Of a DNA stretch of 23,347 nucleotides, positions 1,084-18,693 are shown piece by piece; the first letter of the stretch is position 1, and every line of letters begins with the position of its first letter. Origin of the DNA: a virus; IMG/VR virus record IMGVR_UViG_3300001589_000122, positions 4,303-27,649 of that record. One strand, 5' to 3'. Made by a program: the position numbers and the translations under genes. The notes under the pieces are model-generated. The model was not told where the DNA came from. It was given only the letters and a program-made list of their open reading frames with translations, and ran no database searches.

Positions 1084-1173
1084 TATAGTTTTCAGACATA
1101 TCATAGAGTTTTGATAATAATTATTTTCATTTTAGGGGTTGTATCTGTCCTAGATATTCTGTAATGTTTCTTC

Positions 1174-1384: not shown

Positions 1385-1588
1385 ATGACAAAGAAAGATT
1401 ATATATTGATAGCTGAGATAGTAAGCAACGCAACTTACAAAGAAGAGATCGAAGACTCTTTCGGACCTACGACAGCTACTACTTGTGACTGGACGGTACT
1501 GGTTGGGAATTTAGCTGATGCCTTCAAAAAAGAAAATCCTAGATTTAATCCATCTCTATTTTTGGACGCTTGCGAGCCAAAAAAATAA
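1385..1588 (+). CDS. Small acidic protein of unknown function, first gene of early operon
   Basis: This is a 67-residue protein that I do not recognise. It is acidic, with no signal peptide or membrane segment, and reads as a small helical protein (IAEIVSNATYKEEIEDSF, then WTVLVGNLADAFKKENPRF). The pattern resembles small accessory proteins often found next to ArdC-type genes, but I cannot name a family. The start is supported by ACGAGGA about 7 bases upstream of the ATG. Its stop codon directly abuts the first hammerhead ribozyme, so the mRNA for this protein would end in that ribozyme's hairpins after self-cleavage. Position at the head of the rightward operon suggests early expression. Confidence 0.75.
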   Translation: MTKKDYILIAEIVSNATYKEEIEDSFGPTTATTCDWTVLVGNLADAFKKENPRFNPSLFLDACEPKK

Positions 1589-1638
1589 GTCTATCTGACG
1601 AGGATTTAATATCCGAAACGCCGTGAGGCGTCATAGAC
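1589..1638 (+). ncRNA. Hammerhead ribozyme 1 (type I)
   Basis: All parts of the hammerhead core are present. Stem I is GTCTAT (1589-1594) with ATAGAC (1633-1638). The core CTGACGA is at 1595-1601. Stem II is GGAT/ATCC with loop TTAAT (1602-1614). GAAA is at 1615-1618. Stem III is ACGCC/GGCGT closed by GTGA (1618-1631). The cleavage nucleotide is C1632 in a GTC context. The molecule's ends meet in stem I, which makes it type I. It starts on the base after the stop codon of the preceding gene and would cut 34 bases before the ardC start, leaving a 5'-hydroxyl leader. Confidence 0.92.
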
Positions 1639-1666
1639 AATTTAATTAATAAACAACGGAGGAAAT

Positions 1667-2569
1667 ATGTCTAAAAAAGTAAACAAAAAAGATCAACATT
1701 TTGAGGAAATGCAAAACAAGATCATACAACTAATGGAAACAAACGGAGCCGACTGGACCAAACAATGGATAACAGCCGGACCCCAGAAAAATATAATTTC
1801 CAAAAAGGAGTACAAAGGACTTAATCAATTCTGGTTGTCAATGTCCGGATTTACTTCTAATGAGTGGGCAACCTTTAAACAATGGAGCGATAAAGATTGC
1901 AAAATTATTAAAGGTTCCAGAGGTCGTACGGTTACTTTTTTTAGTCAACTAGAAAAGACTAGAAATTTAACGGACGCTCAAAGAGAACTTAAGGCAAACG
2001 GCGGCACGCCGATTGTATGGTTTGAGAAAACTTCAACGGTTTTTAATGCTCAGCAAGTGGAAGGGTACGAGTCAAAAGAACTCGAAAAAGTTATGACTCC
2101 AGAACTTAAAAAGCTGACTATCAAAAACGCTGAAAAGTTTATTTTTAACACTCAAGCGAAAATAAATATTAGTGGTGACGCTGCATTTTATCAGCCTTCA
2201 GTTGATCAAATAACTATGCCGCCAATAGATACCTTTTTCACTGACACAGCCTATTATTCAACTCTATTACATGAGCTGACTCACTGGACCGGACACCCCA
2301 CCAGAGAAGATAGAGACATGAGCGGCGGATTTGGTTCTGAGAAATACGCCAGAGAGGAATTGATTGCTGAGATTGGTTCCGCTTTCTTATCTCAAATACT
2401 AGGCATTGAGAAAGTCATTAGAGACGATCACGCCAAATATTTAAACGGTTGGATTAAAGTTATCAAAGAAGATCAGAACGCCCTTAAAACAGCGTTTAGC
2501 AAGGCTCAGAAGTCAATAGATTTTCTAAGATCATTACAAGCAAAGGAGGAAAAGAAAAACGCCGCATAA
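1667..2569 (+). CDS. ardC: ArdC-type antirestriction protein with zincin metallopeptidase domain
   Basis: ArdC-family proteins are carried by plasmids and phages and counter host restriction of incoming DNA. The 300-residue protein has the two expected parts. The N-terminal ssDNA-binding domain (DUF1738-like, residues 1-120) includes the characteristic 'NIISKKEYKGLNQFWLSM' region and W-F-K at T47-W55. The C-terminal zinc-dependent peptidase-like domain has HELTH at 202-206, followed by GH and a glutamate-rich AREELIAEIG segment (about 228-236) that should supply the third zinc ligand. The length fits the family. GGAGG lies 7 bases upstream of the ATG at 1667. It is the only confidently named gene in the ribozyme-punctuated operon and suggests that the operon acts against host defences early in infection. 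Whether the peptidase site is active is not known from sequence. Confidence 0.9.
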   Translation: MSKKVNKKDQHFEEMQNKIIQLMETNGADWTKQWITAGPQKNIISKKEYKGLNQFWLSMSGFTSNEWATFKQWSDKDCKIIKGSRGRTVTFFSQLEKTRNLTDAQRELKANGGTPIVWFEKTSTVFNAQQVEGYESKELEKVMTPELKKLTIKNAEKFIFNTQAKINISGDAAFYQPSVDQITMPPIDTFFTDTAYYSTLLHELTHWTGHPTREDRDMSGGFGSEKYAREELIAEIGSAFLSQILGIEKVIRDDHAKYLNGWIKVIKEDQNALKTAFSKAQKSIDFLRSLQAKEEKKNAA

Positions 2570-2575
2570 TAATCA

Positions 2576-2630
2576 GTCTATCTGATGAAGGATTTAATAT
2601 CCGAAACGCTCCGCAAGGAGCGTCATAGAC
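2576..2630 (+). ncRNA. Hammerhead ribozyme 2 (type I, one extra core base)
   Basis: Stem I is GTCTAT (2576-2581) with ATAGAC (2625-2630). The core CTGATGA is at 2582-2588. Stem II is GGAT-TTAAT-ATCC (2590-2602), identical to ribozyme 1. GAAA is at 2603-2606. Stem III is ACGCTCC/GGAGCGT closed by a GCAA tetraloop (2606-2623). Cleavage is predicted after C2624. An extra A at 2589 separates the core from stem II, unlike copies 1 and 5, and may slow cleavage or be accommodated as a bulge. It begins 6 bases after the ardC stop codon and would cut 40 bases before the next start codon. Confidence 0.85.
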
Positions 2631-2664
2631 ATTAAATAATAAACGCCGAAAGGCAGGAGAAAAT

Positions 2665-2844
2665 ATGACTATAAACAAAATAGAAATGATAGACGCTCAA
2701 TGCTTAGAGTTTTACGGGCATACAAACTGGGTATTTTTATCAACACTTTCAGACGATATCATAGAGAAAACTCTAAGATCAGACGAAGGGGAAATAGGTG
2801 GAGCAATTATGTTCTTTTTTAAATCAGAAATGGAGGTGGCGTAA
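2665..2844 (+). CDS. Small protein of unknown function (59 aa)
   Basis: This open frame encodes 59 residues (MTINKIEMIDAQ... ending KSEMEVA). I do not recognise it. It is acidic in the middle (SDDIIEKTLRSDEGE) with a hydrophobic patch near the end (GAIMFFF) too short to be a clear membrane span. The start is well supported: AGGAG lies 5-9 bases upstream and touches a GCC-GAAA-GGC hairpin, the same arrangement seen before other genes of this operon. Its stop overlaps the ATG of the next gene in TAATG, indicating translational coupling. The gene is the first in the unit released by ribozyme 2. Confidence 0.75.
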   Translation: MTINKIEMIDAQCLEFYGHTNWVFLSTLSDDIIEKTLRSDEGEIGGAIMFFFKSEMEVA

Positions 2845-3026
2845 TGGAAAAATTTAAAACTGGAGACAGGGTTATATATAACGGAAATTTTGATAATATT
2901 TTTGAGAGTTATGTCTTGCGTTATATAACGGACGATATGGTTGATCTAAGACTTTGGAATGGTTCAAGACATGTCGGAGATATAGTTATGAATGAGTCAA
3001 GTTTAACCATTTGGGAGGGCAAATAA
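2844..3026 (+). CDS. Small SH3-like barrel protein of unknown function (60 aa)
   Basis: This 60-residue protein has a beta-rich pattern. It starts with a KTGDRVIYNG segment, a common opening of small SH3/KOW-like barrels, continues with alternating hydrophobic strands (YVLRYITDDMVDLRLW) and ends SSLTIWEGK. The barrel fold is inferred from this pattern only. GGAGG sits upstream of the ATG inside the end of the preceding gene, and the ATG overlaps that gene's TAA. Its own TAA overlaps the next ATG in the same way, so three small genes form one coupled unit between ribozymes 2 and 3. No function can be assigned. Confidence 0.75.
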   Translation: MEKFKTGDRVIYNGNFDNIFESYVLRYITDDMVDLRLWNGSRHVGDIVMNESSLTIWEGK

Positions 3027-3283
3027 TGGAAGATCAAATAATAAATATCGAAGCCAACTACACTACTACAGTTCATTGGAACATGGACGATTTAGCAAAA
3101 TCAGAAGGTTTTAAAGTAGAAGATGTTAAAAGAGTTGAGGTAGGTATGTGGGCAACGCTTCATATAAAATTAAATAATGGTAAGTCTATTTATGTTGAAG
3201 CAGCTCCAGTTACTACTGATTACAAAAGGGCGGATAGTTCAGCCTACTTTGATAAACATTGGGTACTGGTGGTGGAAGAATAA
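3026..3283 (+). CDS. Small beta-rich protein of unknown function (85 aa)
   Basis: This is an unrecognised 85-residue protein with strand-like segments (YTTTVHW, VKRVEVGMWATLHIKLNNGKSIYVEA, HWVLVVEE). An in-frame ATG lies upstream at 3011, but I prefer 3026: it overlaps the previous gene's stop as TAATG and has GGAGGG at about 3013-3018. The stop codon TAA ends at 3283 and the next base begins ribozyme 3. It is the last gene of the unit bounded by ribozymes 2 and 3; after cleavage its message would end with that ribozyme's long stem III hairpin. Confidence 0.75.
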   Translation: MEDQIINIEANYTTTVHWNMDDLAKSEGFKVEDVKRVEVGMWATLHIKLNNGKSIYVEAAPVTTDYKRADSSAYFDKHWVLVVEE

Positions 3284-3350
3284 ACCTACTGAAGAGACTC
3301 AGCGAAAATCTGAGCGAAACCAATCTAATTAATTTTAGGTTGGTCTAGGT
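3284..3350 (+). ncRNA. Hammerhead ribozyme 3 (type I, divergent copy)
   Basis: The sequence differs from copies 1, 2 and 5, but the fold is the same, so it is not a simple recent duplicate. Stem I is ACCTA (3284-3288) with TAGGT (3346-3350). The core CTGAAGA is at 3289-3295. Stem II is six pairs with one bulged A (G3296 to C3315, loop CGAAAAT). GAAA is at 3316-3319. Stem III is ten pairs (3319-3328 with 3335-3344), including one G-T pair. Cleavage is predicted after C3345 (GTC context). It begins directly after the stop codon of the preceding gene. Its leader to the next start is 97 bases, much longer than for the other copies. Confidence 0.85.
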
Positions 3351-3410
3351 GTCAAAGATGAAAAGTTTGCATGACAAATAAAAGTCATGTTACTATCCGT
3401 CCTAGATATT
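3344..3410 (+). promoter_or_regulatory. Structured leader that can pair with the ribozyme 3 cleavage site
   Basis: TCTAGG (3344-3349), which contains the cleavage-site bases and stem I strand of ribozyme 3, is complementary to CCTAGA (3401-3406). Between them are a short CAAA/TTTG hairpin (3353-3369) and a six-pair CATGAC/GTCATG hairpin (3370-3389). Formation of the outer helix would be incompatible with the active ribozyme, so the two folds could compete. After cleavage, the downstream RNA could still close with most of the outer helix. This is a pairing proposal, not a recognised RNA family. Confidence 0.35.
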
Positions 3411-3442
3411 AATTAACTAATTCGCTACGGCGAGGAGAAATA

Positions 3443-3856
3443 ATGGTTACATTACAAAACATAAAAAAAACAGATAGATATGAGGAAAGAATTAATTACA
3501 ATTCTGACCACCCAGAAGACACAAACCATGTCGAATTTACTAATCTCATAGATTCTTTTATTGAGGTTGCTTTGCACATGAAAAAGATATCCGATTTAGA
3601 ACTCGACAGAGGGAAAAGATACGATCTTGATTTTCTAAGTTATTGCAACATCTACGGTATAGATGACACTTCTACCGGAGTAATGCAAAACTTACCGGTT
3701 CCGTTGGTTTATTGGAATGATAAAGATACGGGTTCTTATAGTATTAGATATAACAAAACTTTAAGGGGAATTTTCGATAATATTTTTATAGATAAAATAT
3801 CTCATGATGAGATTGTCGAAACCGTTGAAGCACATGATATGTGGTGGAACAGCTAG
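3443..3856 (+). CDS. Unknown phage protein (137 aa)
   Basis: This acidic, soluble-looking protein of 137 residues has no signal peptide, membrane span or motif I recognise. Features visible are a helical stretch around residues 28-55 (EFTNLIDSFIEVALHMKKISDLELD), a tyrosine/aspartate-rich middle, and a C-terminus ending MWWNS. The start is supported by AGGAG at 3433-3437, which directly follows a CGC-TACG-GCG hairpin, repeating the hairpin-then-ribosome-site layout of this operon. The gene stands alone between ribozymes 3 and 4, so it should be carried on its own processed message. Confidence 0.75.
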   Translation: MVTLQNIKKTDRYEERINYNSDHPEDTNHVEFTNLIDSFIEVALHMKKISDLELDRGKRYDLDFLSYCNIYGIDDTSTGVMQNLPVPLVYWNDKDTGSYSIRYNKTLRGIFDNIFIDKISHDEIVETVEAHDMWWNS

Positions 3857-3857
3857 A

Positions 3858-3928
3858 GTCTAACTGAAGATCGCTAAATGCGTGAAATCCTTGTTAATCA
3901 ATCCCCCCAATTAACAAGGATATTAGAC
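3858..3928 (+). ncRNA. Hammerhead ribozyme 4 (type I, imperfect stem II)
   Basis: Stem I is GTCTAA (3858-3863) with TTAGAC (3923-3928). The core CTGAAGA is at 3864-3870. Stem II is only CGC/GCG with loop TAAAT, and its base pair next to the core (T3871, T3883) is a mismatch where a G-C is normal. GAAA is at 3884-3887. Stem III is long, twelve pairs (3887-3898 with 3910-3921). The cleavage base is A3922 in an ATA context, allowed by the NUH rule. Compared with copy 1, stem I has T-A in place of A-T at its inner pair, a compensated change. The weak stem II lowers my confidence in activity. It would cut 39 bases before the next start codon. Confidence 0.75.
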
Positions 3929-3961
3929 AAACTAAACGCCTGAAATATGGCAGGAGAAAAT

Positions 3962-4342
3962 ATGAAAGTAGAAAACTATCTAAAAGAAATTTTAGATTTA
4001 ATTATGGTTGATGATACCTACGAGTATTCATTCGACCTAGACGAGGAGTTAAGCTATGAAAAGGAAGAGAGATTCTCTGATACTTCTTTGTGTAGTGCTT
4101 CACCAGAAAACCCCTATCAAGGAGTTAATGCTGTTGATGTTTGCACAGTTAGAATCTGGAAGAACGACTTGGAAGTGGCTTGGCTAGTGTTTAACAATTT
4201 CAATGACGGAAGCGATCGCTTATTTGATTTTTGTATTATAGATGCCGGTACTTTAAGCAATTTATATGAGTCGAGGAGAAAAATTACAAAAGAAATATTT
4301 GCACACGCAGAAGACTGGCAGAAAAGATACGATCTTCTCTAA
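3962..4342 (+). CDS. Unknown acidic phage protein (126 aa)
   Basis: This unrecognised, strongly acidic protein of 126 residues has the acidic run YSFDLDEELSYEKEE at about 22-36, beta-like segments (VNAVDVCTVRIWKNDLEVAWLVFNNF) and a helical C-terminus. An in-frame ATG at 3947 would add five residues. I choose 3962 because AGGAG lies 5-9 bases upstream, directly after a GCC/GGC hairpin, matching the leader of the gene at 4853. Strong acidity is common among phage inhibitors of host DNA-binding enzymes, but that is only a possibility here. It lies alone between ribozyme 4 and the remnant ribozyme at 4344. Confidence 0.72.
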   Translation: MKVENYLKEILDLIMVDDTYEYSFDLDEELSYEKEERFSDTSLCSASPENPYQGVNAVDVCTVRIWKNDLEVAWLVFNNFNDGSDRLFDFCIIDAGTLSNLYESRRKITKEIFAHAEDWQKRYDLL

Positions 4343-4343
4343 A

Positions 4344-4383
4344 GTCTAAAACACAGATCGGGGCAATTCCGTCCCGATCTTTT
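4344..4383 (+). terminator. Hairpin with T run; probable decayed hammerhead
   Basis: An eight-pair stem AGATCGGG (4355-4362) with CCCGATCT (4373-4380) is followed by TTT, so it could work as a weak intrinsic terminator or as a 3'-end hairpin. It begins two bases after a stop codon with GTCTAA (4344-4349), exactly the stem I strand of ribozyme 4 and at the same relative place. The CTGANGA core, stem II and the closing stem I strand are missing. I read it as a hammerhead that lost its core but kept a stem III-like hairpin; a plain terminator is the alternative. Confidence 0.55.
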
Positions 4384-4399
4384 CATACGGAGAAAAAAT

Positions 4400-4744
4400 A
4401 TGAAAACTTTAAATAAAATAATAAATGATAACGGTAAACCAATCGTTGCAGACTGGGTCCCTGAAGAGTTGCTCTTGTGGGCTGATAACTTTGATAAAAC
4501 TACTTGGGATAAAACTCATTGGGACAAGGAAATTAGTCACAATTATAGGACCCAGACTGATCACGATTATCAAGTAATATTTGAAGCTCTTGAAATTGAT
4601 ATGGCAAAAATGATTGATGTTATTGAGGAGTATTTTACAGGTTACAGCGTTGACTATACTGCAAAGCAAATAGCCGCCGCTTATTATGTAAGTATGTACT
4701 CACCTTATAACGAGGCTCACAGCACAAATCAATACGAAATATAA
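4400..4744 (+). CDS. Unknown phage protein (114 aa)
   Basis: This acidic 114-residue protein is rich in tryptophan, tyrosine and aspartate (for example VADWVPEELLLWADNFDKTTWDKTHWDKE at about 16-44) and is probably helical toward the C-terminus (AKMIDVIEEYFTGYSVDYTAKQIAAAYY). No known domain is recognised and there is no membrane segment. The start is supported by CGGAGA upstream of the ATG. This is the one gene of the series whose leader lacks an intact ribozyme. Its stop codon is followed after two bases by ribozyme 5, so its message would be trimmed at the 3' side. Confidence 0.72.
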   Translation: MKTLNKIINDNGKPIVADWVPEELLLWADNFDKTTWDKTHWDKEISHNYRTQTDHDYQVIFEALEIDMAKMIDVIEEYFTGYSVDYTAKQIAAAYYVSMYSPYNEAHSTNQYEI

Positions 4745-4746
4745 CA

Positions 4747-4819
4747 GTCTATCTGATGAGGATTTAATATCCGAAAACTTAACCGATATCACTCCCAGAT
4801 ATTGGTTAAGTTAATAGAC
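4747..4819 (+). ncRNA. Hammerhead ribozyme 5 (type I, long stem III)
   Basis: Stem I is GTCTAT (4747-4752) with ATAGAC (4814-4819). The core CTGATGA is at 4753-4759. Stem II is GGAT-TTAAT-ATCC (4760-4772), identical to copies 1 and 2. GAAA is at 4773-4776. Stem III is fifteen pairs (4776-4790 with 4798-4812) with an ACTCCCA loop and a single G-T pair. The cleavage base is A4813 in a TTA context. Stem I and II match copy 1 while stem III is wholly different in sequence and length, as expected of a selected fold. It would cut 39 bases before the next start codon. Confidence 0.92.
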
Positions 4820-4852
4820 AAACTAAACGCTTGAAATACAGCAGGAGATAAA

Positions 4853-5197
4853 ATGACAGACAAGAAACTACAATTTAGCCGCAGGGAATACACAATTCTA
4901 CAGATGATGTGTGAGTTTTCTTATGCAAAATATGGAGATCAATTAGAACTTTATTCTTACTTTAATCCAACAGACATAACCTCTCTAACGAATTTCCATG
5001 ATAGGGAATTTGCCAGTTTTTACTCAAGAGATTTTCTTAATTGGGCATTGAGAAAAGATATCCCTGATTTTAAGGGTTTAGAGTGTGGTCTTCTTTTTGT
5101 CACAGACTTAAAGAATCTTTCAGAGGATACCTTAGAGGAAGCTACTGAGTTACTGCAAGATTTTATAATATGTTTTGACATAGAAAGCGAAGCATAA
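4853..5197 (+). CDS. Unknown phage protein (114 aa)
   Basis: This unrecognised 114-residue protein is soluble-looking and acidic, with aromatic-rich helices (SRREYTILQMMCEFSYAKYG, then FHDREFASFYSRDFLNWALRK) and an acidic C-terminal helix (LSEDTLEEATELLQDF). Its leader closely resembles that of the gene at 3962: the segment from the ribozyme's last stem strand to the ribosome site is nearly the same, including the GCT/AGC hairpin before AGGAG. It is the last gene of the series preceded by a ribozyme; from here on the genes overlap or nearly touch and no further hammerheads are seen. Function is unknown. Confidence 0.72.
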   Translation: MTDKKLQFSRREYTILQMMCEFSYAKYGDQLELYSYFNPTDITSLTNFHDREFASFYSRDFLNWALRKDIPDFKGLECGLLFVTDLKNLSEDTLEEATELLQDFIICFDIESEA

Positions 5198-5201
5198 GCA
5201 C

Positions 5202-5402
5202 ATGAGTAACGGATTGAATAACGAAGATTTCACGGATAGCGATTTAATTAATACTATTTTTAATTTAAATTCGCTACCGGAATACAGGAGAAAGCAGATT
5301 GCTATTCTTTTATTATCAACAACATTGACTAAAGACTGCTCCGTAGAACTATCTAGTTTTATGGACGGTCTAGCCAATACAATAACGAGGAGTTATGAAT
5401 AA
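5202..5402 (+). CDS. Unknown small protein (66 aa)
   Basis: This 66-residue protein begins four bases after the previous stop. It is hydrophilic at the start, then helical (FTDSDLINTIFNLNSLPEYRRKQIAILLLSTTLTKDCSVELSSFM), with no recognised motif. The ribosome site is weak (AAGCAC just upstream), which suggests coupling to the gene before it. Its end overlaps the next start by eight bases, where GAGGAG inside its last codons serves as that gene's ribosome site. It belongs to the compact, ribozyme-free second half of the operon. Confidence 0.65.
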   Translation: MSNGLNNEDFTDSDLINTIFNLNSLPEYRRKQIAILLLSTTLTKDCSVELSSFMDGLANTITRSYE

Positions 5403-5787
5403 CAACTACAACAAAGATTGGATAGAGCAGAGACTATATGCAATAGGCATAGAGATAGATCAAGAACAACATCTCATGTCTAAAAAAAGTTATGAAAAAT
5501 TATTACAAGAATCAGACAGATTGAGTGATGAGTTGGAAGAACTTTGCAAAGAAGATAATGCTATGGAAGATGAGGAGGATAGATTTTTTAGACACATGAG
5601 GGTTAAAACTTTTGAACCTAATAATAAATCTAATAACCCTGATCTTATAGAAACTTGGAACTCAGTCATGCAAGTTTTATTTGATAAAAGGTCCAGAGAA
5701 TATACTGAAGAAGATAGAATTTTAGATTCTAATTTAGATATTCTTGGTGAAGTTATTATGAGGGAGGCAGCAAAAGATCATGAGTAA
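5395..5787 (+). CDS. Unknown acidic, probably coiled-coil protein (130 aa)
   Basis: This is a highly charged 130-residue protein. Residues about 15-60 (IEIDQEQHLMSKKSYEKLLQESDRLSDELEELCKEDNAMEDEED) show the heptad-like leucine spacing of a coiled coil, which suggests oligomerisation or binding to a partner. The remainder is acidic with no known domain. GAGGAG lies directly upstream of the ATG. It overlaps its neighbours by eight bases on each side, a sign of tight translational coupling. Function is unknown. Confidence 0.68.
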   Translation: MNNNYNKDWIEQRLYAIGIEIDQEQHLMSKKSYEKLLQESDRLSDELEELCKEDNAMEDEEDRFFRHMRVKTFEPNNKSNNPDLIETWNSVMQVLFDKRSREYTEEDRILDSNLDILGEVIMREAAKDHE

Positions 5788-6247
5788 ATTTAATATAGAA
5801 TCAGGCATAACCAAAGAGTCTAATAGTTTGAGCGGAGAAGTTTTAAAAACTTTAAAGCTCATGAAGATAGATGATTGCGTTAGAAATTTAACAGCCAAAG
5901 AAAAATCAGCTTTTACTCAAGTAGCTAAAAGAAATAATTACCATGTAATGACCGGCAGACAGTCATGCGGTGTTTTATATACTGTGTGGTTATTAGCTAA
6001 CCCAACTAGCAACGAGTTACTTAATAGCAATCCCAAAAGATTATCTAATAATGATCTTAGAGGCGGCAGAGATTTTCATAGTGACTATGCTCCTTATGGT
6101 GTTCCTTCTGGTGTTAAGTGCTACATAGATCAAGAGTTTTATGAGGAAGATAAAATGATAGTTGATGATATGAAATCTATCTTCAAAGCTATGAATGAAG
6201 AAGAAATTTATATAAAGAATTTTAACAATGAAAAGGAGTACAAATGA
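5780..6247 (+). CDS. Unknown phage protein (155 aa)
   Basis: This 155-residue protein has an N-terminal helical part (LKTLKLMKIDDCVRNLTAKEKSAFTQVAKRN) followed by a polar region with glycine and aromatic residues (MTGRQSCGVLYTVWLLANP, RGGRDFHSDYAPYGVPSGVKCYID) and an acidic tail. I recognise no family. The ribosome site GGGAGG sits about 9-14 bases before the ATG, inside the preceding gene. Its stop TGA overlaps the next ATG in ATGA. The position in the operon suggests an early accessory role only. Confidence 0.7.
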   Translation: MSKFNIESGITKESNSLSGEVLKTLKLMKIDDCVRNLTAKEKSAFTQVAKRNNYHVMTGRQSCGVLYTVWLLANPTSNELLNSNPKRLSNNDLRGGRDFHSDYAPYGVPSGVKCYIDQEFYEEDKMIVDDMKSIFKAMNEEEIYIKNFNNEKEYK

Positions 6248-6420
6248 CATTTCCATTTAAAGATAAAAAATCAAAAAAGAAAGCACAAGATAAGTATTTA
6301 ATTAACACTCAAAATAAAGGTTTAGTTAGTGTTAAATTAATTGTCCCTAGAGATAGGTTAGATGACATTAAATCTTATGCCGCAGAGTTGAGGCTAGTAC
6401 ACAAGGTAATCAACTCATGA
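6244..6420 (+). CDS. Small basic protein, possibly ribbon-helix-helix-like (58 aa)
   Basis: This 58-residue protein has a lysine-rich N-terminus (MTFPFKDKKSKKKAQDKY) and then the pattern GLVSVKLIVPRDRLDDIKSYAAEL. A strand with alternating residues followed by an amphipathic helix is how MetJ/Arc-type ribbon-helix-helix DNA-binding proteins look. That fold is my inference; no decisive motif exists for it. AAGGAG precedes the ATG, which overlaps the preceding stop. Its own TGA overlaps the next ATG. If it binds DNA it could regulate this operon, but this is untested. Confidence 0.65.
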   Translation: MTFPFKDKKSKKKAQDKYLINTQNKGLVSVKLIVPRDRLDDIKSYAAELRLVHKVINS

Positions 6421-6704
6421 AGGAGAATATGAATAACCATGAATTAGCACTCGTTATAGGTGATCTATTAGATGAAGCTCAAGAAAGAAACATACCCGAA
6501 TATCTTGAAGAGCTGAAATTAAAAATAGGTTTTCATTTAGTAAAAAATAGCAGAGCAATTAAAGATGACGACTTGGTTTTAAATCAAGTTGAAATGAATG
6601 TTGCCAATGCTCTTATGAGGTATGTTGAAAAACAAATCTTAACTAGATTCCAAACTCAATCCTTATCTGAGTTGGAAAACAAATCCCCCCACTTCGATAG
6701 TTAA
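6417..6704 (+). CDS. Unknown helical protein, last gene of the rightward early operon (95 aa)
   Basis: This mostly helical acidic protein of up to 95 residues (ALVIGDLLDEAQERNIPEYLEELKLKIGFHLV, VNALMRYVEKQILTRF-type segments) has no recognised domain. The ATG at 6417 overlaps the previous TGA. A second ATG at 6429 has AAGGAG in front but only three bases of spacing, so I keep 6417 and mark the alternative. An inverted repeat follows the stop and the next gene comes from the opposite strand, so the operon ends here. Confidence 0.68.
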   Translation: MKENMNNHELALVIGDLLDEAQERNIPEYLEELKLKIGFHLVKNSRAIKDDDLVLNQVEMNVANALMRYVEKQILTRFQTQSLSELENKSPHFDS

Positions 6705-15034: not shown

Positions 15035-15445
15035 TTTTATTAATGATTGGTAGCTATCAGTTTTTTCAAGTTCTTCAGTAGATAGAGTGATCTTAGTAGC
15101 AGGATAATTAGAGGGAATATAAGTAATTATATTTAATGGCATACAATAGAGAGCATAGATGTCTATACTATTTTCTCCGTTCTCACCGTAAAGACGGTCT
15201 TTTGTATGCCTCCCTCTTCTAAGATCAAATTGCCAACCTACCCTTCGAGCAACGCCTCCTCTTTCATAGAGTCTTTCGTTACCTTTAGTTTTAACCTGAC
15301 ATTTTAAAATCTTATCTTCATGCTCAAAAAGAATATCAGCATGAGAACCATGAGGAACTATTGATACGGTATCTGAATATAATGCAAGATGACTAGCAAC
15401 TGCAAACTCTCCGCTTCTTCCTAACCTTTCGGTCGATCTACCCAT
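14996..15445 (-). CDS. PD-(D/E)XK endonuclease-like protein (149 aa)
   Basis: This protein of 149 residues shows the pattern of small Holliday-junction-resolvase-like or restriction-like nucleases: E13 in the first helix (SGEFAVASHL), D37 in GSHADILFE and Q50-x-K52 in KCQVKTKG. These three motifs fit the E...D...(E/Q)xK active site of the PD-(D/E)XK fold. The substrate is not evident. Its start overlaps the stop of the large virion gene upstream by one base and its end overlaps the integrase gene on the other strand. It is probably the last gene of the late operon; a role in DNA trimming, resolution or degradation of host DNA is possible. Confidence 0.72.
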   Translation of the reverse strand: MGRSTERLGRSGEFAVASHLALYSDTVSIVPHGSHADILFEHEDKILKCQVKTKGNERLYERGGVARRVGWQFDLRRGRHTKDRLYGENGENSIDIYALYCMPLNIITYIPSNYPATKITLSTEELEKTDSYQSLIKSINDLSVDNISR

Positions 15446-18400
15446 TAATCAAATTGTGTTTGTTTATCTTCAAAGTATTTTTGCATTAGCTCAGGGTCTT
15501 CGGCTAATAGTAATTGTCTTGCAGCGTTATTGAATTGCTGCATAGTATTTTCAAGAATATAAATTTTTATTCCCTTACTAGCATTTTGAAATCCACTAGA
15601 AAGTATAATGTTTCTAATCGCATCTTTTGTGTTTAAATTTTTATTTAATTCCAACATTCTTGAATATTGAAAAGGATTTAATTCTATGTTGCCCATTTTT
15701 CTTGAAGGGTTACGAGGGGTAAATCCAATGTCATAAAAAGTATCAAACACAATATCTTTTTTATCTTCTGAGTAACTATAAGGAGTAAATGGTCCACCAA
15801 AACTAGGGTCCCTTTTTTGTATCTCGCCAAACATATTTCTTCTTGGAGCAAGATCAGTTTTAGTGTCACCAAAGTAAGGTATTCGTTGTATTAAAGTATC
15901 TGTTATTGTTCTTGCATCTCTAAGAACATCATCATCATATTGTCCACCATGTGCAAAAATTGTTGGGACAAACGAACCTGCAAATCTCTGAACAAATCTA
16001 TCACCATATCTTGCAGGGTCAGTTAAAACTTTAACAGCCTCACTTAAACCGGACATAAAAGTTTTATTAGTTAAGTTATTAGCTACAGAACCTACAATCA
16101 TAGCTGAGACTTTTCCTGCCTCTAACTCTAAATCTTTTGTTTCGTCTTGAGAATTGTTTACATATTTTCCAACTTCGTTTAAATCAGCAGCAATACCAAA
16201 CAAAATTCCTATAGGTTCAAATCTATTATATTTGTAATAAAAATCACCAATTTTAATTGAGTACGGTTCCCAACCTCTATCTCTGTTTCTTTGTACTCCG
16301 TTAGCGTCAAGAGGCTCTCCCTCTTTAGAAGCTCCTGCTCCAGTTATAACTCCTGAATTTGCTAAAAATCCAACCCCTAACATTGTAGAAGAACCCATAA
16401 CTAATCTGCTTGTAACTACATCTCTTTCAATTCCACCTTTTTTATAGGAGTCTTGAAATCTTTTAGTCATTAAACCAAAGGGACTTCTATCGATTGCATA
16501 CTTAACAATATTAATTGGAGTACGAACGAAGGGAAGTATGAATCTCATAGCAGGAAAAACCCTGTTCATCTTATTAATAGCCTGTCCAAAGCCGCCTACT
16601 TTATTTGTAAAGGTTTGGTATCTTCCTACTTCCAAAGCATCAAACTCAATGTCTTTACCTATTGGAGAATTAAGAGGGTCGTCTCCATGTTTCTTAACAA
16701 GTTGAGCAGCATAGTTCCAACCCTTTCTTTCTTTCGCAGCCTTTCTCATAGCTTGACCCCATATCTCTTGTCGATAAGCAATCGTCTTAAAAAACATATC
16801 TTCAGCAACTAACATTCTGCTTGGCGTTCTAACAATTTTTCCACCTATACCGCCTATAGATTTTTGTCTTGCTAGTTCTAATTTTGTAGTTGAATCCATT
16901 ACTGCATTTTCATCAAATACAGTTTTACCAAAAACTTTTAAACCTTCTAAATGTCCTAAGATTGTTCCAACTAACCTTGCAGCAGCTTCACTATATGTAA
17001 CTCGTTCCCCACCAGTAAGCATTTTAGGTGTACCCTTAATCGCAGCTCCAAAATATTCTAATGGTCGCATCAAGGCTGTAAGTTCGTTTGAAGAAACATT
17101 AACTAAATGTGTAGAAGGTGAAGACAATAATGAGTTAATCCAGAACTCTTGAATTTTATTTAATAATGTAGGGTTTTCTAATCCTGCTATATATTTTATA
17201 GCTGCATCAACATCACCGTCAAAAGCCTCAAGGTTTCTAGCTATTATTTCAGGAGAGAGCTTTGTATTTTTAGCATTTTCTAAAAATTCTTTTTGTGCTT
17301 GTGTTCTGATTTTTTCATCAGGGTTTCTTGATATTTCTCTTAACGCTCTTAAAGTTCTTCCTGCTTCCGCTCTAGCTCCTGCACTAACCTCATGCACTGC
17401 TGACACTTCGTTGCTCATTTTTTTAAAATTAAAATGATCTATTTCTCTTACTGTTCCGTTATCAATTTTAGCTAAATATATTTTTCTAGCCTTTGCTAAA
17501 TCTTCAGCCAAAGTTCTTTCTATCTGTCTAATTCTTGTTATTTCTACATCATTAAACGCTGTACCTTTTGGTGTATTAATAATGTCGTCAACAGTCCAAC
17601 CTAATTCATTTGCTCGGTCGTTTAATTTTTCACCATTCCTACCAAACTCTTGACGACCTCTTCTTTGATTAAAATATTGATCGCTGTCATCTGCTAAATC
17701 TATATATTCTTGTTTGGCTTTTTTATTCGTTCCTGTTTTATCAAGATTTATATTAGCTGCTTTGTTAGGGTCTGTTGTTGGAGTAGGTCCAATAGGTGAA
17801 GAGGGAGTTCTGCTTCCTGCTCCTGTAAATGTAGGACCAACTATTTCAGGTTCAGGAACTCTTGGACCAACTATTGGACTAGGTGGACCTACTTCTTCAT
17901 CTGCTGCTCTTTTACTAGCGTTCTTATCTATTTCCCCAGACGCTTTTTCCGGTCGGTCGTCCACTTTTTTAAACTTACCTCTTATTTTGCCTAGAGACTT
18001 TATAACACCCTCTACCGCAATACCCATTCCTGCTCCTTCAATAGCCATTTTTAAACGACCCTCAGCAACAGTGTCATCATCATCTGCTTGTAACCATTCA
18101 GTAAATTCATTAGGAGCAAGGTCTTGAATAAGGTTTGATAATCTTTCTTCGTCAGGACTAAATGCCATTTGTTCAGCAATGACACCGGCTGAAGTATATT
18201 TAGTAAATTTACCAACTTTGGTAACAGGGTCTAATTTCTTTAATTTACTAAGTTTGGATAATGCTTGTATGCCTTTTAATGTTCCAGTGTAAGGAACTAA
18301 AAATCCTGCTGCATCTCTTACAAAACTACCTAGCATATTAGTAGGTTCGGCAACTTCAGGAAGATCAGGTAAATCAACATAACCTCCAGTTACATCTCTT

Positions 18401-18693
18401 ACCAAATCTGAAGTTCCTTGAATTGTATCTCTAGCAGCTCCACCAACAACTCTAAAAGTATCTTCTAAAAAACTAACATCATTAGGGTCTTCGGCTTGTG
18501 GAGTGTTATTTAATATGACTGGTGAATTTAAATCTATTCCTGATAAATCTATTTCTTCATCTAGCGAAATATCTGATAAATCTATTTCTTCATCTAATGA
18601 AATACCTGATAAATCTATTTCTTCATCTAGCGAAATATCTGATAAATCTATTTCTTCATCTAATGAAATACCTGATAAATCTATTTCAGCCAT
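15445..18693 (-). CDS. Large virion protein, probably internal/ejected (1082 aa)
   Basis: At 1082 residues this is the longest gene of the window and lies at the end of the late operon, where short-tailed phages usually keep large internal proteins that are ejected into the host. The N-terminus holds five 11-residue repeats (EIDLSGISLDE / EIDLSDISLDE) forming a highly acidic stretch of about 55 residues. After a proline-rich linker (about 250-310), the rest is a long helical protein with Ala/Arg-rich stretches (EVSAGARAEAGRTLRALREI) and several hydrophobic or glycine-rich segments (for example about 770-800) that might contact membranes. I see no clear lysozyme or transglycosylase motif. The virion role is inferred from size, position and composition. 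Confidence 0.65.
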   Translation of the reverse strand: MAEIDLSGISLDEEIDLSDISLDEEIDLSGISLDEEIDLSDISLDEEIDLSGIDLNSPVILNNTPQAEDPNDVSFLEDTFRVVGGAARDTIQGTSDLVRDVTGGYVDLPDLPEVAEPTNMLGSFVRDAAGFLVPYTGTLKGIQALSKLSKLKKLDPVTKVGKFTKYTSAGVIAEQMAFSPDEERLSNLIQDLAPNEFTEWLQADDDDTVAEGRLKMAIEGAGMGIAVEGVIKSLGKIRGKFKKVDDRPEKASGEIDKNASKRAADEEVGPPSPIVGPRVPEPEIVGPTFTGAGSRTPSSPIGPTPTTDPNKAANINLDKTGTNKKAKQEYIDLADDSDQYFNQRRGRQEFGRNGEKLNDRANELGWTVDDIINTPKGTAFNDVEITRIRQIERTLAEDLAKARKIYLAKIDNGTVREIDHFNFKKMSNEVSAVHEVSAGARAEAGRTLRALREISRNPDEKIRTQAQKEFLENAKNTKLSPEIIARNLEAFDGDVDAAIKYIAGLENPTLLNKIQEFWINSLLSSPSTHLVNVSSNELTALMRPLEYFGAAIKGTPKMLTGGERVTYSEAAARLVGTILGHLEGLKVFGKTVFDENAVMDSTTKLELARQKSIGGIGGKIVRTPSRMLVAEDMFFKTIAYRQEIWGQAMRKAAKERKGWNYAAQLVKKHGDDPLNSPIGKDIEFDALEVGRYQTFTNKVGGFGQAINKMNRVFPAMRFILPFVRTPINIVKYAIDRSPFGLMTKRFQDSYKKGGIERDVVTSRLVMGSSTMLGVGFLANSGVITGAGASKEGEPLDANGVQRNRDRGWEPYSIKIGDFYYKYNRFEPIGILFGIAADLNEVGKYVNNSQDETKDLELEAGKVSAMIVGSVANNLTNKTFMSGLSEAVKVLTDPARYGDRFVQRFAGSFVPTIFAHGGQYDDDVLRDARTITDTLIQRIPYFGDTKTDLAPRRNMFGEIQKRDPSFGGPFTPYSYSEDKKDIVFDTFYDIGFTPRNPSRKMGNIELNPFQYSRMLELNKNLNTKDAIRNIILSSGFQNASKGIKIYILENTMQQFNNAARQLLLAEDPELMQKYFEDKQTQFD
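18539..18688. repeat. 66-bp tandem repeat at the start of the large virion gene
   Basis: Two full 66-base units (18539-18604, 18605-18670) are identical and a partial third follows (18671-18688). Each unit is itself made of two 33-base halves that differ in a few bases. On the protein level this gives alternating GISLDE and DISLDE versions of an 11-residue repeat. Identity of the long units points to recent duplication and to likely copy-number variation. Confidence 0.9.

Follow-up and report, generated by a model that had tools for sequence, protein, structure and literature searches.

An array of five hammerhead ribozymes predicted to punctuate a phage operon at its gene boundaries

A rightward operon with five hammerhead folds

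The window, a stretch of 23,347 nucleotides, comprises bases 4303-27649 of the 27,649-base virus record IMGVR_UViG_3300001589_000122 and contains a rightward operon (1385-6704) with a leftward module on either side. The operon opens with a gene for a protein of 67 amino acids that belongs to no family (1385..1588, + strand), followed by the gene for an ArdC-type antirestriction protein (1667..2569, +; PF08401, E 1e-20; PF18818, E 7e-46; phrog_7245), which lies amid genes for small proteins of unknown type. Further along the same strand are a tightly joined block of three small genes (2665..3283), a gene for a protein of 137 amino acids (3443..3856), whose homologue in the related contig L145 adjoins a different hammerhead, a gene pair (3962..4744) and a run of tightly packed downstream genes (4853..6704). 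The source, a marine and probably temperate phage, gave no megablast match to known phages, and no tRNA that could serve as an att site for host assignment was found. Since its internal virion protein is just ~25% identical to the counterpart in Pelagibacter and Roseobacter phages, a marine alphaproteobacterium as host is only a guess. The same protein, encoded at 15445-18693 (- strand), carries an N-terminal run of EIDLSGISLDE / EIDLSDISLDE repeat units.

A structural descriptor requiring the hammerhead core and three stems, applied to both strands, matched the window exactly five times, always on the + strand, and returned no match on either strand of 200 dinucleotide-shuffled windows; the five complete type I folds that the initial annotation had placed at 1589, 2576, 3284, 3858 and 4747 were thereby recovered. 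All five copies possess the CUGANGA and GAAA core strands, a U-H at the cut site and three stems with stem I open. In single-sequence folding the hammerhead is the minimum-energy structure for HH1 and the minimum-energy or centroid structure for HH2-HH5 (the centroid for HH3), with fold z-scores of -2.6 to -5.7. Cleavage is predicted after C1632 in HH1 (1589..1638, +; z -2.6), after C2624 in HH2 (2576..2630, +), which has an extra A before stem II, after C3345 in the divergent HH3 (3284..3350, +), after A3922 in HH4 (3858..3928, +; z -4.6), which has U-U at 10.1/11.1 and so lacks that base pair, and after A4813 in HH5 (4747..4819, +). Both the extra base that separates core and stem II in HH2 and the U-U at 10.1/11.1 of HH4 recur in other phages.

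The placement of the five copies is narrow. They begin 0, 6, 0, 1 and 2 nt past a stop codon, within the 0-6 bases first reported, and their predicted cuts lie 34, 40, 97, 39 and 39 nt ahead of the next start, HH3 being the one copy outside the range of 34-40 bases given for four of five. The accompanying description of successive gaps stands in a restricted form: every operon gap longer than 57 nt holds a hammerhead, while gaps of 4 nt or less hold none, the ribozyme-free gaps within 2665-3283 and from 4853 on measuring -8 to +4 nt, and a 57-nt gap (4343..4399, +) is likewise without a ribozyme. This last gap carries GTCTAA 1 base past the stop codon and then a strong hairpin (z -3.6), and may possibly be a decayed hammerhead copy that has kept GTCTAA after the stop. 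That plain hairpin, together with the strong stem III hairpins of the five copies, is what could be expected if ordinary intergenic hairpins, acting as terminators or 3' stabilisers, mimicked hammerheads by chance; with core bases intact in 5/5 copies, nothing in the 200 shuffles, no U-tract after the folds and none of the five listed by a terminator scan, such mimicry is hardly credible.

Other elements accompany the array. The near-palindrome TATCYGTCCTAGATA occurs ahead of the operon as TATCTGTCCTAGATA (1142..1156) and again, between HH3 and the gene at 3443, as TATCCGTCCTAGATA (3394..3408), and is conserved in L128 and L145; it is a possible operator, and its second copy a possible internal control site. 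A sigma-70 promoter near 3376-3405, inside the array, was suggested by eye and is absent from the output of the promoter scan. The leaders after HH2, HH4 and HH5 contain, at 2645-2654, 3938-3951 and 4829-4842, a short stem (GCC/GGC or GCT/AGC) immediately 5' of AGGAG, the two forms representing a compensatory pair change that is also found in L128 and L145.

A conserved fold in a sub-type that Rfam misses

The expectation that the Rfam type I model would match all five copies failed: at gathering cut-offs, Rfam reported 0/5. Searches down to E 10 gave no type I match, and RF00163 (Hammerhead_1), which shares its topology (stem I open) and core with the window copies, reported none of them; the sole match was that of HH3 to RF03152 (RAGATH-1-hammerhead) at 34.4 bits (E 0.0044) against a cut-off of 56.3, the two being alike over the core and minimal stem II, with the upstream hairpin of the family matched poorly. 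Of the roughly 50 copies that the descriptor finds in eight related contigs, a single one reached the RF00163 cut-off. This silence is attributed to a failure of the Rfam models to capture the sub-type. Covariance support for the fold came instead from R1, a model trained on 30 viral hammerheads that include HH1 (68.9 bits, E 5e-14). R1 detects HH2 (59.2 bits, E 9e-12), HH4 (50.9 bits, E 8e-10) and HH5 (54.6 bits, E 1e-10) and matches HH3 more weakly. Because HH3 reaches only 19.2 bits (E 0.022), it is read as a separate architecture and is the least certain of the five copies; in its stem II, G10.1-C11.1 is followed by a bulged A, and a G replaces the usual A after stem I, which leaves it without the 3' flanking A.

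The claim that pairing is kept while the stems vary was upheld by several comparisons. Among viral contigs chosen by core and stem II sequence alone, 124 of the 132 core matches having enough flank form both stem III and a stem I of 5 bp or more, as against 1.1% in a control with random upstream bases. The 6-bp stem I is flanked by A on either side (207/211 and 205/211 copies), although these residues played no role in finding the copies, and loop II is a near-invariant UNAAU. An alignment of 30 sequences has 137 cells changed on both sides, compared with 39 for shuffles; the count is inflated because the aligned members were picked for pairing. At the gene boundary of HH5, L128 also has a hammerhead, which differs in stems I and III by compensatory changes at 50-56% protein identity; the boundary of HH2 likewise carries one in L128, with U as the extra base, and in L145, without the extra base. 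The stem covariation of a type I hammerhead is thus found in the alignment, in the core-picked contigs and in the pair formed by the window and L128.

Natural hammerheads need a contact between loop II and stem I for speed, and the near-invariant flanking A residues and UNAAU loop would fit such a tertiary contact. Pairing of loop II (UUAAU) with AUUAA 3' of stem I as a pseudoknot suits HH1 and HH2 by eye; HH4 and HH5 do not fit it, and the idea gave way to the flanking A residues. The evidence supports HH1-HH5 as real type I hammerheads, for which core and fold predict self-cleavage.

Hammerheads at gene boundaries in other viral contigs

Whole-record searches recovered 14, 11, 10 and 8 hammerheads in single contigs. 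L053 (22,483 bases) is one example, in which the covariance model places 14 copies on one strand, most of which lie in a stretch of about 6.3 kb. Among 238 non-redundant copies, an ORF stop lies near the fold start in 221, nearly always at -20 to +20 nt and often inside the fold, and the distance from the cut to the next start, which has a Shine-Dalgarno sequence, has a median of 36 nt. Types I, II and III number 288, 8 and 12 in a sample that was seeded by a pattern type II cannot match and scanned with descriptors differing slightly in strictness. In bacterial genomes, the narrow core pattern found no match and a broader one found 13; the model matches just three of these, L216, L217 and, weakly, L214. 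L216:1-5798 (5.8 kb), binned as an Aliivibrio MAG, has eight hammerheads, and its leaders, for example TTAAAATTTATTATTATG, lack a Shine-Dalgarno sequence, as in Bacteroidota; the bin label is therefore doubtful, and a Bacteroidota phage contig that was mis-binned is suggested. The leaders of L009, L032, L014 and L041 consist of the 3' half of stem I and then a second copy of the 5' half (TTAGACaatcaaGTCTAA), so that a hairpin could form at the 5' end of the cut product.

Comparison with related genomes was among the checks that the initial annotation had proposed. Where the same gene neighbours occur in two contigs, 40 cases have the ribozyme in each contig and none in one alone; many of these junctions are in near-identical contigs, and just 5 are below 90% identity. 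At the edge of ArdC, a type I, II or III hammerhead occurs in 12/63 loci versus 2.1% of random stretches; the ArdC boundary has none in the other 51 of these 63 relatives, and in the cultured relatives considered, the Pelagibacter phages Hodr and HTVC011P and the Roseobacter phage CRP-804, the regions around ArdC contain no such ribozyme. The hammerheads are therefore optional and their function dispensable. The ArdC edge is occupied by type I in the relatives of the window and by type II in L147, L148, L153, L154 and L182; the type II copies stand directly 3' of ArdC, in L147 about 1 base past its stop codon. Because different topologies occupy the same boundary, the sequences point to selection on the cut itself and not on one RNA shape. 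The association parallels that with ardA in Perreault et al. (PMC3088659).

Gene order varies between L128, L145 and the window, hammerheads being retained at the junctions, and the gene products of the phage include an exonuclease and a Sak4-like annealing protein. Both observations would suit a role of the repeated ribozyme sequence as a site for gene-cassette exchange, with RNA cleavage incidental. Neighbour changes, however, are not enriched at hammerhead junctions (107/147, compared with 323/452 at junctions without one), and the core, flanking A and pairing are kept while the sequence of stem III varies, the reverse of the pattern that a homology linker requires, so that exchange as the function is highly improbable.

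Predicted processing of the operon message

The folds, their conservation and the fixed stop-to-start placement of the hammerheads are observed. The reading we favour, with a probability of about 0.78, is that five self-cleaving hammerheads punctuate the operon and divide its RNA into mRNAs of single genes or small blocks, cleavage being expected from hammerhead chemistry. Predicted cutting at gene boundaries is well supported, and self-processing of the polycistronic mRNA, as originally put forward, remains its most likely result in view of the folds and their placement. During transcription, each ribozyme would fold just past the stop codon of the preceding gene and cut itself; the message 5' of the cut would then end in the ribozyme body, which bears a 2',3'-cyclic phosphate, and the one 3' of the cut would begin with a 5'-hydroxyl and a short leader bearing its own ribosome-binding site. 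The units released would be the gene at 1385, ArdC, the three small genes, the gene at 3443, the two genes between HH4 and HH5, and the rest.

The benefit would most likely be the separate decay and translation of each unit or block. A weaker 5'-dependent attack by RNase E on the 5'-hydroxyl leaders is plausible: 5'-hydroxyl ends weaken 5'-end-dependent cleavage, and E. coli seems to be without a kinase that rephosphorylates them (PMC4191395). The resistance to RNase E that was first proposed is nevertheless only half right, since 5'-independent 'direct entry' is a major pathway of the enzyme and would limit the gain (PMC4191395). The stem III hairpin at the 3' end may, as was also proposed, hinder 3' exonucleases.

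The statement that no operon was known to be organised this way does not stand. In Perreault et al. 2011 (PMC3088659), hammerheads flank genes in prophages, with several per genome, and processing into operon- or gene-length mRNAs is proposed; the same paper reports cleavage of similar tandem arrays from prophages in vitro, in one case also in E. coli, with native polycistronic RNA cleaved for three arrays other than that of the window, and inactivity in vitro for 4/18 consensus hammerheads. The window, with multiple hammerheads flanking genes and blocks in a phage, belongs with these clusters, which share with it single genes or short blocks flanked by hammerheads, an antirestriction neighbour (there ardA) and the proposed mRNA processing. 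The array tested most closely there is a triple, although larger ones may be described there, whereas five copies are present here and 14 in a related contig; the copies here are also almost all type I, with a narrow stop-start register, an A-flanked 6-bp stem I and a UNAAU loop II. The hammerhead of haloviruses HF1/HF2, as described in the same paper (PMC3088659), resembles those of the window in lying shortly 5' of an early-gene (helicase) start, where a 5' end was mapped near the cut, and differs in being a single copy with a core altered for high salt. A search of open-access literature, with most subscription journals outside its scope, found nothing newer on phage hammerhead arrays. The window is best read as an unusually dense and regular case of the known prophage-array kind, in a sub-type that Rfam misses.

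The similarity of the stems raises a further explanation, in which the ends of a released unit re-form stem I, thereby closing and protecting the message and perhaps ligating it to circular or re-ordered mRNAs. Stem I is GUCUAU/AUAGAC in HH1, HH2 and HH5 and nearly so in HH4, and because it is shared, an excised unit would start with AUAGAC (UUAGAC) and end in a ribozyme body with GUCUAU (GUCUAA); ArdC is the only gene that flanking hammerheads with an identical stem I would excise. Each of the 16 combinations of the four canonical window copies pairs at no fewer than 5 of the 6 positions. Across arrays, 52% of neighbouring pairs are fully compatible, compared with 10% of pairs between contigs, and L128 carries the same AUAGAC leader ahead of a gene without a ribozyme. 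Non-neighbours within a contig, however, reach almost as high a value (41%), so that common descent within the genome may explain the compatibility. Stem I is identical throughout some arrays and not in others, so that no general rule of identity within a phage applies; all copies differ in L038, L073 and L104, and stem I of HH3 is incompatible with the other copies of the window. Circular or spliced products were sought by Perreault et al., and none was found (PMC3088659). Retrozymes and viroid-like circular RNAs (PMC7761336) likewise have an RNA unit between two hammerheads with compatible ends; the units here, in contrast, are protein-coding genes with no sign of a circular RNA or a replicating unit. 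Re-joining of ends is accordingly an unlikely account of the array. Its fuller form, in which the arrays are a phage expression system whose released mRNAs re-pair or ligate their complementary stem I halves in cis into closed or circular mRNAs, would explain the within-genome similarity of stem I as a shared end code; it is distinctly unlikely, and cis end-pairing stays speculative because the excess over non-neighbours is small (52% vs 41%).

The arrays bear on two wider matters. Because the public RNA library detects hardly any members of this sub-type, hammerhead arrays of this kind are probably under-counted. The role of phage hammerheads has been a standing question since 2011, and dense arrays, with as many as 14 copies in one contig, a fixed stop/start register and varied topologies bordering one gene family, offer a clean test bed for it.
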